From Streptomyces formicae (lineage in GTDB: Bacteria > Actinomycetota > Actinomycetes > Streptomycetales > Streptomycetaceae), in the NCBI RefSeq assembly GCF_002556545.1, contig NZ_CP022685.1:2480001-2544000 (forward strand): 64,000 bases of DNA, given 5' to 3'. The notes below the pieces were generated by a model. That model was given only the letters and a program-made list of their open reading frames with translations. It made no database searches and was not told where the DNA came from. Positions 14,197-18,496 of this stretch are shown in pieces. A program made the position numbers and the translations under genes. Positions within the stretch are counted from its first letter, which is position 1. Every line of letters starts with the position of its first letter.

Positions 14197-14724
14197 TCAG
14201 CCCACGTCCGGCGGCTCCTGCCTGGGCTGGGGCAGCACGGGCTGCAGCACCAGCATCCGCTCGACGATGCGCAGGAACATCGCGACGTCACGGAGCAGGT
14301 CGTCGGCGTCGCGGACGGTGGCCGCGCCCTGGATGCCCGCCTCCGCGCGGGCCCTGCGGGCGGCGCCGGAGGCGAACAGGGCGCTCCACTCGGTCAGTTC
14401 GGGGGCTATCTCGGGGAGCACTTCCCAGGCGCTTCGGATGCGCTGCCTGCGGCGTGGGGTGGTCTCCGGCCTGCCGCGGGCGGCGAGCACGGCGGCCGCG
14501 GTGCGCAGGGCGGCGAGGTGGGCAGTGGCATAGCGCTCGTTCGACGTGTCCAGGCGGGCGGCCTCGTCGAGTCCGGCGCGGGCCTGGGCGAGCAGTTCGA
14601 GGGCGGCGGGCGGGGCGGTCGCGCGGCGCAGGACGGGGTGGACATCGCTCGCCGGGCCGGTCAGTGAGGAAACAGGGCCGACGGCGCTGTGCCGGTGTGC
14701 GGCTGCTGTGGAACTCCTGGCCAT
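14197..14724 (-). CDS. SAV_6107-family HEPN-domain protein
   Basis: 175-residue soluble, mostly alpha-helical protein of the SAV_6107 family, named from Streptomyces avermitilis and assigned to the HEPN superfamily. The helical block ALELLAQARAGLDEAARLD (about residues 41-59) and the following RYATAHLAALRTAAAVL are family hallmarks. The canonical HEPN RNase motif RxxxxH is not obvious, so nuclease activity cannot be assumed. AGGAGG lies 6 bp before the ATG. It is divergent from the ABC/YhgE operon and upstream of a methyltransferase. No function is established for the family. Confidence 0.82.
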   Translation of the reverse strand: MARSSTAAAHRHSAVGPVSSLTGPASDVHPVLRRATAPPAALELLAQARAGLDEAARLDTSNERYATAHLAALRTAAAVLAARGRPETTPRRRQRIRSAWEVLPEIAPELTEWSALFASGAARRARAEAGIQGAATVRDADDLLRDVAMFLRIVERMLVLQPVLPQPRQEPPDVG

Positions 14725-14813
14725 GACGAACCTCCTGTCGTCGTGTGACGGCGCAGTGGCCGTATGTGCCCATCGTGGAGTACGCCACTGACAATCGGCC
14801 CTGACCTGCGGCT

Positions 14814-14842
14814 TTGCCTCGATCGAGGGTTCGGGCTTATTT
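14814..14842 (+). promoter_or_regulatory. Predicted promoter of the ATPase-YhgE-tetR operon
   Basis: TTGCCT (14814-14819), 17 bp, then TTATTT (14837-14842). The -10 box touches the TetR operator that starts at 14841, so repressor binding would block initiation. Confidence 0.5.
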
Positions 14843-14866
14843 TTGAACTGACCAGTCAGTTCAAAA
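14841..14866. promoter_or_regulatory. Predicted TetR-family operator, 26-bp perfect palindrome
   Basis: TTTTGAACTGAC (14841-14852), CA, then its exact complement GTCAGTTCAAAA (14855-14866). It lies over the end of the predicted -10 and the start point, 20 bp before the first gene of an operon whose third gene encodes a TetR regulator. ACTGACCAGTCAGT-type cores are typical of TetR/AcrR operators, so autorepression is the obvious reading. Confidence 0.85.
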
Positions 14867-14885: not shown

Positions 14886-15680
14886 GTGGACGGTCCGACC
14901 GACGGCGTGCGCGGAGCCGCCGTCACAGCCGAGGGGTTCGGGCTCAAGGGCCCGCGCGGCTGGGCGTTCCGAGGCATCGACATCGACGCGGAGTCCGGCT
15001 CGCTGATCGCGCTGGAAGGCCCTTCGGGATCCGGCCGCACCTGCCTGCTGCTGGCCCTGACGGGACGCATGCGCGCCACCGAGGGCAGGGCGTCCGTCGG
15101 CCGCCTGCGGCTGCCCAAGCAACTGGCCGGGGTGCGCCGGATCAGCGGGCTCGGGCCCGTGCCCGGCGTCACCGATCTCGACCCCGCGCTGACCGTCGCC
15201 GAGCACCTGCGCGAACGGGCGCTCCTGGAGCGGCGGTTCAGCGGTTCGCTGCGGGGACTCCTGCGGCCGCGCGCCGAGCGCGCGAACGAGGCGAAGCTGC
15301 GGATCGACACCGCGCTGATCGCCGCCGGGCTCGACATGGAGAAGCTCCCCAAGGGGCGGCGGACCTCCGTGCGCGACCTGGAGCGCCTTGAAGCCCTGCG
15401 GCTCTCCATCGCCCTCGCCCTGATCGGCAGGCCGCGCGTGCTCGGCGTCGACGACACCGACCTGAAGCTCTCGGACGCCGAACGGGCCGAGGCGTGGGCC
15501 CTGCTGAAGTCCCTGGCCGACAGCGGGACGACCGTCGTGGCCGTGTGCAGCGAGGCGCCCGACGGCGCGGTCGTGGTGCGCACCGGCGCTCAGGACGCCG
15601 CGGACCGGAACAGCACCGAAGAACGCACCGACGACGACAAGGAGACGGCGGATGCGCTCGCCGAAGCTGGCCGCGCTTGA
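14886..15680 (+). CDS. Degenerate ABC-type ATP-binding protein
   Basis: 264-residue protein with the fold pattern of an ABC ATPase, but with several changed catalytic features. Walker A reads GPSGSGRT at residues 45-52, with Arg51 in place of the catalytic Lys. The LSGGQ signature position reads LERLEALRLS, Walker B ends in DD (189-190) instead of DE, and no switch His is evident. GTG at 14886 has a G-rich ribosome site directly upstream. Its end overlaps the YhgE-type gene by 29 bp. It may bind nucleotide without normal hydrolysis, or serve as a structural partner of the YhgE protein. Confidence 0.8.
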   Translation: MDGPTDGVRGAAVTAEGFGLKGPRGWAFRGIDIDAESGSLIALEGPSGSGRTCLLLALTGRMRATEGRASVGRLRLPKQLAGVRRISGLGPVPGVTDLDPALTVAEHLRERALLERRFSGSLRGLLRPRAERANEAKLRIDTALIAAGLDMEKLPKGRRTSVRDLERLEALRLSIALALIGRPRVLGVDDTDLKLSDAERAEAWALLKSLADSGTTVVAVCSEAPDGAVVVRTGAQDAADRNSTEERTDDDKETADALAEAGRA

Positions 15681-17736
15681 GCTCAGGCGCTTCGGCAGGG
15701 GGAAGCTGCCGCGCGCCGCGCTCGTCGCGCTCCTGCTCCTGCCGCTGCTGTACGGCGCGCTGTACCTGTGGTCCTTCTGGGACCCCTACGGCCGCCTCGA
15801 CCGCATCCCCGTGGCGCTCGTCAACGACGACAAGGGAGCGTCCGCCGCGGGCAAGAAGCTCGCGGCGGGCGACAACATCGTCGAGAAGCTGCGCGACAGC
15901 AAGACCTTCGACTGGCACGAGGTGAGCGACGAAGAGGCGCGCAAGGGCGTCGAGGACGGCACGTACTACCTCTCGCTGACCATGCCGTCGGACTTCAGCA
16001 AGCGCATCGCGTCCAGTTCGGGGGACTCTCCGGAGACGGGTGCCCTTCGGGTCCGTACGAACGACGCCAACAACTACATCGTCGGGCAGATCTCCCGGAC
16101 GGTCTTCTCCGAGGTGCGCTCCGCCGCGTCCACGAAGGCGTCCCGCGGCTTCCTCGACAAGATCTTCGTCTCGTTCTCCGACATCCACGGCGCGACGCAG
16201 AAGGCCGCCGACGGCGCCGAGAAGCTCGACGGCGGCATCGGCAAGGCGAAGAAGGGCTCCAAGGACCTCGCGAACGGCCTCAAGGACGCCAAGGACGGCA
16301 GCGGCGACCTGGCAGGCGGCGTCAAGAAGCTGCACAAGGGCGCGGGCGATCTGGAGGTCGGCGCCAAGAAGGTCTCGGACGGCACACAGAAGCTCGCCGA
16401 CAAGGTGAACGGCACCGCGGACCAGGTGCGGCCCTTCCTGAAGGACAACGGCAAGACCATCGGGGACAGCGCACAGCTCGCCGCCGACTCCTCCAAGGCG
16501 ATGCGCCGCAACCTGGCCGACTGGGTCAGGCTCGCGCCGGAGGCCGCCAAGGGGGCCAAGGACGGTCAGCGGGTCATCAACCGCTTCTACGCGGAGCAGT
16601 GCGAGCAGGCGCCCGTGGCCGCCCCCTTCTGCCCCAAGCTCAAGGACGTGAAGGCGGCCGCCGCGAACGTCTCGACCATCGCGGACGACCTCGACACCCT
16701 GGTCAAGGACCAGAACAGCGACGTCAAGCAGCTCGACAAGAACCTCGCCGCGCTGCAGAAGCAGTCGCAGCGCCTCGCCGACCGGGCGCCGCACCTCGAC
16801 GAGGACCTGGAATCGGCCGTCACCCAGATCAACGACCTCAACAAGGGCGCGGGCAAGGTCACCAAGGGCGCCGCGAAGCTGCACACGGGTCTCGGCACCG
16901 CCCAGACCGGTGCCAGCGACCTGGACGCGGGCGTCGGCAAGCTGGAGACGGGCGCGAGCGACCTCAAGGGCGGCCTGTTCAAGCTGGCCGACGGCTCCGC
17001 GGAGCTGTCGGGCGGGCTGCACGACGGCGTCAAGAAGATCCCCGACTACGACAAGAAGGACCGTGACGCGCGCACCGACGTCATGGCCGACCCCGTGCAA
17101 CTGGCCTCCCAGTCGATGCACAAGGCGCCCAACTACGGCACGGGCTTCGCGCCGTACTTCATCCCGCTGTCCCTGTGGGTCGGCGCGATGGTGGCGTACA
17201 TGCTGATCCAGCCGCTCAACCGGCGCGCGCTCGCCGCGGGCGCCTCCGCGTGGCGCATCGCGCTCGCGGGCTGGCTCCCGGTGGCGGCGCTCGGCGTGCT
17301 CCAGACGGCGGCGCTGCTCTCGGTCCTGCACTGGGGCCTCGGCCTCCAGATGGCGCGGGCGGCCGGGACGGTGGGCTTCCTCTGCCTGGTGACGGCGTGC
17401 TTCGCGGCGATCGTGCAGTGGCTGAACGCCCGCTTCGGAGCGGCGGGACGGATCCTCGTGCTCGCCGTCCTGATGCTCCAGCTGACCTCGGCGGGCGGTA
17501 CGTATCCGGTGCAGACGAGCCCCGGCTTCTTCAGCGCGATCCATCCCTTCTTGCCGATGAGTTACGTCGTCGAGGCTCTCCGGAGACTCATCACGGGCGG
17601 CGGCCTCGGCCCGGTCTGGCAGGGCTGTGCGGTCCTCGCGGCCTTCACCCTGGGCGCCCTGGCGCTCACCGCGCTCTCCGCGCGCCGCAAGCAGGTGTGG
17701 ACCCTGGACCGGCTGCACCCGGAGCTGAGCCTGTGA
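15652..17736 (+). CDS. YhgE/Pip-family membrane protein
   Basis: 694 residues: one N-terminal helix (about 19-40), a roughly 450-residue extracytoplasmic region, then about five helices resembling an ABC-2 permease (about 500-680). The N-terminal domain (PVALVNDDKGA near residues 53-63) and the repeated short motifs such as KLADGxxxLxxG are typical of YhgE/Pip and type VII secretion EsaA/EssA-like proteins. These repeats predict long extracytoplasmic helices. AAGGAGA precedes the ATG. The pairing with an ABC-like ATPase and TetR regulator suggests export of a lipophilic compound or envelope-associated function, but the substrate is unknown. Confidence 0.9.
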   Translation: MRSPKLAALELRRFGRGKLPRAALVALLLLPLLYGALYLWSFWDPYGRLDRIPVALVNDDKGASAAGKKLAAGDNIVEKLRDSKTFDWHEVSDEEARKGVEDGTYYLSLTMPSDFSKRIASSSGDSPETGALRVRTNDANNYIVGQISRTVFSEVRSAASTKASRGFLDKIFVSFSDIHGATQKAADGAEKLDGGIGKAKKGSKDLANGLKDAKDGSGDLAGGVKKLHKGAGDLEVGAKKVSDGTQKLADKVNGTADQVRPFLKDNGKTIGDSAQLAADSSKAMRRNLADWVRLAPEAAKGAKDGQRVINRFYAEQCEQAPVAAPFCPKLKDVKAAAANVSTIADDLDTLVKDQNSDVKQLDKNLAALQKQSQRLADRAPHLDEDLESAVTQINDLNKGAGKVTKGAAKLHTGLGTAQTGASDLDAGVGKLETGASDLKGGLFKLADGSAELSGGLHDGVKKIPDYDKKDRDARTDVMADPVQLASQSMHKAPNYGTGFAPYFIPLSLWVGAMVAYMLIQPLNRRALAAGASAWRIALAGWLPVAALGVLQTAALLSVLHWGLGLQMARAAGTVGFLCLVTACFAAIVQWLNARFGAAGRILVLAVLMLQLTSAGGTYPVQTSPGFFSAIHPFLPMSYVVEALRRLITGGGLGPVWQGCAVLAAFTLGALALTALSARRKQVWTLDRLHPELSL

Positions 17737-17783
17737 GCACGGCGGGTCCTGGCGGCCCGGCGAGACCTGTGAGAATCAGGGCC

Positions 17784-18404
17784 ATGGACAGCAGCGCAGG
17801 CAGCACCCGCCGCGAGGCCACCCGGCAGAAGCTCTACGAGGCCGCCGTCACCCTCATCGCGGAACAGGGCTTCTCGGCCACGACGGTCGACGAGATCGCC
17901 GAACGGGCCGGGGTCGCGAAGGGCACGGTCTACTACAACTTCGCGAGCAAGTCGGTCCTCTTCGAAGAGCTGCTGCGGCACGGCGTCGGCCTGCTGACCG
18001 CCTCCCTGAAGGAGGCGGCCGACGAGGCCGACAGGAACGACGGCACCAAGGTCGACGCGCTGGACGCGATGATCAGGGCCGGTCTGGTCTTCATCAACCG
18101 CTACCCGGCCTTCACCCAGCTGTACGTGGCCGAGCTCTGGCGGACCAACCGGGCCTGGCAGTCCACGCTCCTCGTGGTCAGGCAGCAGGCCGTCGCGGTG
18201 GTCGAGGACGTCCTTCGGGCGGGCGTCGAGAACGGCGAGCTGAGCGAGGAGATCGACATCCCGCTGACGGCCGCCGCGCTCGTCGGCATGGTGCTCGTGG
18301 CCGCCCTCGACTGGCAGGCGTTCCAGCCGGAGCGCTCGCTCGACGATGTGCACGCGGCGCTCTCCCGGCTGCTCCAGGGCCGGGTCAGCGGCACGCGCGC
18401 GTAG
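17784..18404 (+). CDS. TetR-family transcriptional regulator
   Basis: 206-residue one-component regulator with an N-terminal TetR helix-turn-helix (TTVDEIAERAGVAKGTVYYNF, about residues 34-54) and a helical C-terminal ligand and dimerisation domain. It is the last gene of the ATPase-YhgE operon, 47 bp after the membrane protein stop. The natural target is the perfect palindrome at 14841-14866 in front of that operon, giving negative autoregulation relieved by an inducer, perhaps the substrate of the membrane complex. A strong terminator follows. Confidence 0.93.
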   Translation: MDSSAGSTRREATRQKLYEAAVTLIAEQGFSATTVDEIAERAGVAKGTVYYNFASKSVLFEELLRHGVGLLTASLKEAADEADRNDGTKVDALDAMIRAGLVFINRYPAFTQLYVAELWRTNRAWQSTLLVVRQQAVAVVEDVLRAGVENGELSEEIDIPLTAAALVGMVLVAALDWQAFQPERSLDDVHAALSRLLQGRVSGTRA

Positions 18405-18450: not shown

Positions 18451-18496
18451 CACCGGCCCGGTGCCTCCTGGTTCTCCAGGTGGCACCGGGCCGGTG
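18451..18496 (+). terminator. Terminator hairpin after tetR
   Basis: Stem of 15 bp (18451-18465 with 18482-18496), one mismatch, then a 5-bp upper stem and a 4-nt loop. It ends the ATPase-YhgE-tetR transcript. The rest of the 18405-18790 gap shows no gene, only weak -10-like sequences near 18720 and 18777. Confidence 0.8.

Follow-up and report, generated by a model that had tools for sequence, protein, structure and literature searches.

The 26-bp palindrome in front of a three-gene operon of Streptomyces formicae is very probably the operator at which the product of the third gene, a TetR protein, binds. At this position TetR would block P1, the promoter of the ABC-YhgE genes, until released by a small molecule, and in Streptomyces tetR would also be read from an element of its own, P2. 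On comparison across families, the predicted site and this TetR are near-exclusive partners, the site overlaps a predicted promoter, and a conserved P2 element precedes tetR. From these patterns we infer that the TetR binds the site, that it represses rather than activates, that P2 is active and that a ligand exists; the latter may be an amphipathic or acyl-CoA-like compound that the membrane complex handles. The features of the window, the whole 64,000-nucleotide stretch that was analysed, are listed in Table 1.

Table 1. Positions of the operon, its predicted control elements and the neighbouring gene in the window
Feature	Position	Strand	Remarks
HEPN_SAV_6107 protein gene	14197-14724	-	126.7 bits
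P1 -35-like box TTGCCT	14814..14819	+	TTG 16-19 nt 5' of the -10 in 57/74 genomes
P1 -10-like box TTATTT, overlapped by the operator	14837..14842	+	TANNNT at the left edge of the operator in 71/74 genomes
Predicted TetR operator, perfect 12+2+12 palindrome TTTTGAACTGAC-CA-GTCAGTTCAAAA	14841..14866	.	Before gene 1 in 74 distinct genomes of the genus and in other families
Gene 1, degenerate ABC ATPase-like protein	14886..15680	+	Pfam ABC_tran 37.8 bits
Gene 2, YhgE/Pip family membrane protein	15652..17736	+	TIGR03061 and TIGR03062 over cut-off
P2 extended -10 element TGTGAGAAT, probable leaderless tetR promoter	17768..17776	+	7 nt 5' of ATG
Gene 3, TetR/AcrR regulator, 206 aa, recognition segment RAGVAKGTVYYNF	17784..18404	+	
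GC-rich hairpin 3' of tetR, where the transcription unit may end	18451..18496	+	Arms 21 nt, 95% complementary

The palindrome and the P1 promoter

A preliminary description of this DNA reported a perfect palindrome with 12-bp arms and a CA centre, the first two bases of which are also the final two of a -10 box. Both observations were confirmed. The arms (14841-14852 and 14855-14866) are 100% complementary, the core ACTGACCAGTCAGT occupies positions 14847-14860, and 17 nt separate TTGCCT from TTATTT. A simple consensus scan found no promoter at the palindrome. In the 74 distinct genomes of the genus with the site before gene 1, most of which were selected for having the site or the operon, the TANNNT hexamer abuts or overlaps the left edge of the site in 71.

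The perfection of the arms is weak evidence by itself, because perfect 12-nt arms with a gap of 0-6 occur at six distinct places in the window (0.23 expected from base composition with independent bases). What goes beyond chance is the sequence of the palindrome, which is unique in the window and the genome and conserved elsewhere. No further match to the 26-mer with up to three mismatches was found in the window (0.00 expected), and none to a 22-mer with up to three mismatches across the 9.6 Mb chromosome. The operator consensus, TTTTTGnACTGACyrGTCAGTnCAAAA, was derived from 83 of 84 loci, one being cut; its inner part CTGACnnGTCAG (CTGAC..GTCAG) was demanded by the consensus script and is invariant by construction.

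The window's five further perfect inverted repeats are GC-rich and hairpin-like, and a scan reported a terminator-like stem directly upstream of the palindrome (14818-14835), both of which would suit a terminator or RNA element instead of a protein site. For the palindrome itself we consider this extremely improbable: its centre has only 2 nt, it keeps a near-fixed distance from the -10-like hexamer in those 71 genomes, its sequence and not merely its pairing is conserved, and it tracks a DNA-binding protein.

The P1 spacer also contains a LexA-like box, TCGATC-GAGG-GTTCGG (14819-14834). A box with at least 10 of 12 positions is present in the P1 spacer of 36 of 83 loci, as compared with the S. 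venezuelae motif in a passage of PMC9380542. Similar letters persist in several genomes that keep tetR without the operon.

Co-occurrence of the site and TetR

The 22-bp site was found with up to two mismatches in 186 of 246 genomes of the genus, and this TetR in 233. The 13 genomes without the TetR all lack the site (0/13; Fisher p 3.7e-9, a value that ignores relatedness, related species not being independent). No such site was found in 60 genomes, 17 of which carry gene 1; the site is present with more changes in 12 of these 17, and the other five are cut at a contig end. At one of the 12 loci (L067) the site stands 210 bp 5' of gene 1. One genome (G237; loci L017 and L081) keeps the operator next to a broken operon, with gene 1 scattered over frames and a gene 2 match limited to the last 46 residues.

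When gene 2 was searched for across the class, 86 of 296 genomes proved to have a relative. Among 30 loci picked through gene 2, the core is present with at most one mismatch in 17/17 where gene 2 is followed by this TetR (two of them from the genus, 15 from beyond it) and in 0/11 where it is not; counted by family, the figures are 6/6 and 0/6. Two of the 30 were left uncounted, one with the core and a TetR elsewhere in the genome (L201) and one whose stretch starts within gene 1 (L204). Two of the 11 loci (L217 and L227) have other TetR-like matches nearby.

A second set was collected from named genomes through TetR peptide patterns only and comprises the best 80 loci among the matches listed, 29 of them from Streptomyces and possibly overlapping with the genus set. 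Here the core precedes the operon in 70 of 73 loci with YhgE upstream of tetR and in none of seven without it, one of the seven (L305) having 635 bp of upstream sequence only. Two of the three misses are truncated where the contig stops (L297 and L299), while the third, in Actinocatenispora (L306), is real. The named loci come from genera such as Amycolatopsis and Kutzneria, Arthrobacter and Pseudarthrobacter, Actinoplanes and Micromonospora, and Streptomyces, which we take to represent the families Pseudonocardiaceae, Micrococcaceae, Micromonosporaceae and Streptomycetaceae.

In a class set of 394 genomes the site occurs in 55, at most once in each, and the reversed-pattern control in none. 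The TetR profile matches 69 of these genomes at E<=1e-30 and 72 at 1e-25. It is present at the stricter threshold in 54 of the 55 genomes with the site; the 55th (G582) has a divergent TetR adjoining the operon. The 15 TetR genomes without an exact site match comprise eight with the core and other flanks or one mismatch (G247, G511, G328, G298, G489, G529, G537, G599), six genus genomes with neither the pair nor the core (G133, G192, G223, G464, G507, G539; a 44-residue scrap of gene 2 remains in G539), and one (G574) with the pair, a diverged TetR (29% identical) and no core. Overall, the core is present in 62 of the 63 class TetR genomes with an ABC-YhgE pair, the pair being inferred in 10 of them from the spacing between site and TetR. 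That distance is 2.6-3.4 kb on a single contig in 52 of 54 genomes. Of the remaining two, G421 has a contig that stops inside gene 2, and in G436 the operator precedes an ABC-YhgE pair without TetR; the only TetR found there follows another, operator-less pair on a different contig, so that it would have to act in trans.

G436 (L201, L381, L389) belongs to a family, f17, in which some genomes have two ABC-YhgE pairs. Its two pairs lie on two contigs, one on each; elsewhere in f17 they stand in tandem around one tetR (L202, G359).

TetR and site are not inseparable, since 30 of the 246 genomes of the genus retain the TetR and have no site, and in G130 (L120) a core with other flanks adjoins a different TetR gene. 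Both facts would suit a palindrome bound by another regulator, with this TetR a bystander. That reading is nevertheless highly unlikely: every genome with the site has the TetR (186/186 in the genus; 55/55 in the class, one as a divergent copy), and where an ABC-YhgE pair has no such TetR, the site is missing as well (11/11 loci). Two operon-bearing TetR loci, those of Actinocatenispora and G574, are counter-examples in lacking the core. The preliminary description had placed a TetR operator over the ABC-YhgE promoter and proposed looking for the palindrome before orthologous operons, where its absence would speak against the idea; it is present there, and co-occurrence and promoter geometry both support the placement. 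A palindromic site over the promoter of the adjacent operon that co-occurs with the TetR is the pattern looked for in a TetR repressor at its own locus, and this locus shows it.

Some TetR proteins are activators, and searches of the 13 genus genomes that have no TetR detected no gene 1 and no gene 2, as might be expected if TetR activated P1. The site, however, covers the start region and lies 3' of the -35 box, so a bound protein should block the polymerase. It is this position, and nothing else, that points to repression, and activation appears very improbable.

The tetR promoter element and tetR without the operon

Immediately 5' of its ATG, tetR of Streptomyces has the conserved sequence (TGT)GA(G/C)AATC, a -10 element that is mostly extended and has leaderless spacing. 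A (G/T/A)ANAAT hexamer lies 6-7 nt 5' of the ATG at 66 of 68 operon-bearing loci and at 29 of 30 loci where tetR stands without the operon (95/98 in total), preceded by TGn at 60 and 21 of them, respectively. In shuffled upstream bases the hexamer appears in 0.4%, with the reservation that the script could pick among in-frame starts and the shuffles could not. The element is present at 25 of 31 named Streptomycetaceae loci and was found at none of the named loci of Pseudonocardiaceae (0/14), Micrococcaceae (0/24) or Micromonosporaceae (0/10). Two Micromonosporaceae loci (L307 and L316) have a similar TGTGAGGAT 6 nt 5' of a GTG.

Because of this conserved element, Streptomyces tetR is probably independent of the promoter that TetR would repress. 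The preliminary description had suggested self-repression. Repression is well supported, while the prefix has to be qualified for Streptomyces: as tetR has its own -10-like element 6-7 nt before the ATG, only read-through into tetR would be under the operator. In Pseudonocardiaceae and Micrococcaceae the classical self-repression reading may hold. The mechanism that we propose is that TetR at the operator would cover the P1 -10 box and the start region and thereby block initiation of the ABC-YhgE genes, and that a small molecule in the TetR pocket would release it. With Streptomyces tetR also read from the leaderless P2, the repressor would always be made, and induction would add only read-through to tetR. 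Instead of self-repression in its pure form, the result would be a repressor that is permanently present and subject to some feedback.

The operon was also described as self-contained. No second strong site was found, in agreement with this, but in 30 of the 246 genomes of the genus tetR is retained with the operator missing and no gene 1 at E<=1e-15, so TetR may do something else too. All 30 orphan loci retain at least one of the usual neighbours (the HEPN, methyltransferase, DUF4126 and FAD protein genes), and at one of them (G077) the contig ends directly 5' of tetR. Several orphan genomes (G022, G160, G239, and G539 of the class set) contain remnants of the lost genes or operator. A quick TetR tree gives 11 changes between the operon-bearing and orphan states, at least five of them on well-supported branches. 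The alternative that tetR is older and that the ABC-YhgE pair was inserted next to it at a later time is disfavoured, since other families hold the full operon with the same operator and the remnants in orphan genomes show loss.

Quite possibly the orphan tetR genes are leftovers on their way to being lost, with no second function, as tetR is also absent from 13 of 246 genomes. The ratio dN/dS (Nei-Gojobori, codon bias uncorrected) was calculated for orphans against the nearest operon-bearing TetR. It is 0.11-0.46 for 19 recent orphans, three of which exceed 0.26, and 0.33-0.84 for 11 deep ones; between operon-bearing TetRs the median is 0.11 and the maximum 0.26. The higher orphan values would fit decay. 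The six closest orphan pairs, however, give 0.05-0.32, and taken together the values indicate that selection on orphan TetRs is weaker but not gone. Also at odds with decay, all 30 reading frames are intact, the P2 element is retained at all but one of these loci, and the recognition residues 41-53 are unchanged in 30/30 orphans, as in all 98 aligned TetRs of the genus, although the most diverged orphan proteins are only about 51-67% identical to the TetR of the window.

A search for a second TetR target yielded 58 core-like sites with up to one mismatch in the 30 orphan genomes, where the reversed control gave 41, as against 27 in the 13 TetR-less genomes (control 15). For such core-like sites the orphans thus have no per-genome excess, which again fits the idea of leftovers. 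Individual candidates were rejected. A second exact core in the genome of the window lies inside a reading frame, and exact cores in G115, G022 and G130 have different flanks, the one in G130 being next to the different TetR gene. In orphan genomes the sequence ACTGACAAT in the HEPN promoter had the look of a TetR half-site, but it belongs to TTGTCAGTG-N8-NANNNT, which is kept in 8/8 TetR-less genomes examined (a HEPN match was obtained in nine of the 13, the fragmented one being left out).

In the window the HEPN promoter reads TTGTCAGTG-N8-CACGAT (14772-14794, minus strand) and resembles the RecA-independent DNA-damage motif (RecA-NDp/PafBC). Judged from this promoter, the HEPN gene is possibly DNA-damage-inducible. 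This genome contains 65 matches to the pattern TTGTCRGTG-N9-ANNNT and five to the reversed control. Among 30 of these loci, some downstream frames resemble, from their translations, DinB, UvrA, UvrB, RarA, a RecB-type nuclease and a helicase. According to a passage of a 2022 study of S. venezuelae (PMC9380542), a first search in that species pointed to a lack of conservation of the PafBC motif known from M. smegmatis.

We tentatively entertain a broader scenario, possible though somewhat doubtful. The TetR would have a second, operon-independent job in Streptomyces, having gained its own leaderless promoter before the operon was lost repeatedly, with the repressor and its frozen DNA-reading helix remaining under selection. 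Its main partner, YhgE with a conserved non-canonical ABC subunit, would constitute a novel type of membrane complex that handles lipids or amphiphiles, and the TetR-operator pair would have been kept across several actinobacterial families.

The operon proteins and related systems

The three genes are as previously described, a degenerate ABC ATPase, a YhgE-type protein and a TetR, according to profile matches, and the closest named proteins come from Streptomyces. Genes 1 and 2 overlap by 29 nt. In the gene 1 protein the Walker A lysine is replaced by arginine (GPSGSGRT), LSGGQ is missing, VDD takes the place of the usual DE, and the H-loop histidine is absent. Across 83 aligned genus rows from 74 genomes, the arginine is present in 83/83 and LSGGQ in 0/83, the catalytic glutamate position holds Asp in 81 and Gly in two, and no His was found in the four H-loop columns read. 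The protein thus has none of the four features looked for in an active ABC transporter ATPase (Walker A Lys, LSGGQ, catalytic Glu and H-loop His). Outside the genus the arginine is also usual, with lysine in two of seven pairs without this TetR. Going by these motifs, the protein may bind ATP and is unlikely to be an ordinary motor. Gene 2 scores 197.1 bits with TIGR03061 (cut-off 96.15) and 240.3 bits with TIGR03062 (cut-off 102.2), which places it in the YhgE/Pip family.

The gene 3 protein scores 66.2 bits for the TetR_N DNA-binding domain (cut-off 24), and its AlphaFold2 model is all-helical (pLDDT 88.8). The best Foldseek match is FadR of Bacillus subtilis (3whb, TMq 0.81, 22-23% identity), of which 3whc is the stearoyl-CoA complex; the FadR-like fold is unspecific, 575 chains matching at E<=0.001. 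Other top matches are Rv0078, EthR2, Thermus FadR, KstR2 and FasR, several of them solved with acyl-CoA. Judging from the fold model, the putative ligand may be a long-chain acyl-CoA or some other amphiphile, which is a sensible starting guess and no more.

To our knowledge, the ABC-YhgE pair has no assigned substrate. Passages of published studies mention YhgE mutations in Enterococcus faecalis under lipophilic agents (PMC8754111, PMC9634178), a YhgE entry of 2.65 after smoke extract (PMC6200755) and a log2 value of -1.31 under lauric acid (PMC5816558). As these passages stand, the link between YhgE and lipophilic agents is weak and mixed, and serves as a lead only. Among the publications listed for YhgE and associated TetR regulators none dealt with this operon, and among the matches to the operator letters none concerned bacterial regulators by title.

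The proposed switch, a TetR repressor on a neighbouring membrane operon, would be of an ordinary kind, and the comparative support for it is unusually good. Two traits are unexpected, namely the apparently independent promoter element of the repressor and its repeated survival after operon loss. An unnamed three-gene operon thereby becomes a testable regulatory unit with a defined predicted operator across four named actinobacterial families, and the operator model predicts the presence or absence of the site in genomes. Genomes with the repressor and no operon, together with G436, where repressor and operator are on separate contigs, offer a natural experiment on a local TetR that has lost its target. 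The TetR ligand would be the shortest route to the substrate of the ABC-YhgE pair.

FadR of B. subtilis, an acyl-CoA-responsive member of the TetR family, is the known regulator closest to this TetR, both in fold and as the best NCBIfam match. FadR is also a repressor that works through a palindrome, the letters of which differ from those described here. Unlike FadR, this TetR adjoins an ABC-YhgE pair rather than fatty-acid degradation genes, and its score for the FadR equivalog NF053878 (69.4 bits) is far below the cut-off of 200. Gene 2 passes both family cut-offs as YhgE/Pip proteins do, while its score for EsaA, a type VII secretion protein related to YhgE/Pip, stays below the cut-off (58.6 versus 122); in contrast to both, it is partnered here by a degenerate ABC ATPase and a TetR. 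The DrrAB-type ABC-2 exporters resemble the pair in that gene 1 matches DrrA at 48.6 bits and gene 2 has an ABC-2 membrane domain. They differ in that the DrrA score is far under its cut-off of 312 and the catalytic motifs of gene 1 are altered in all aligned genus rows.
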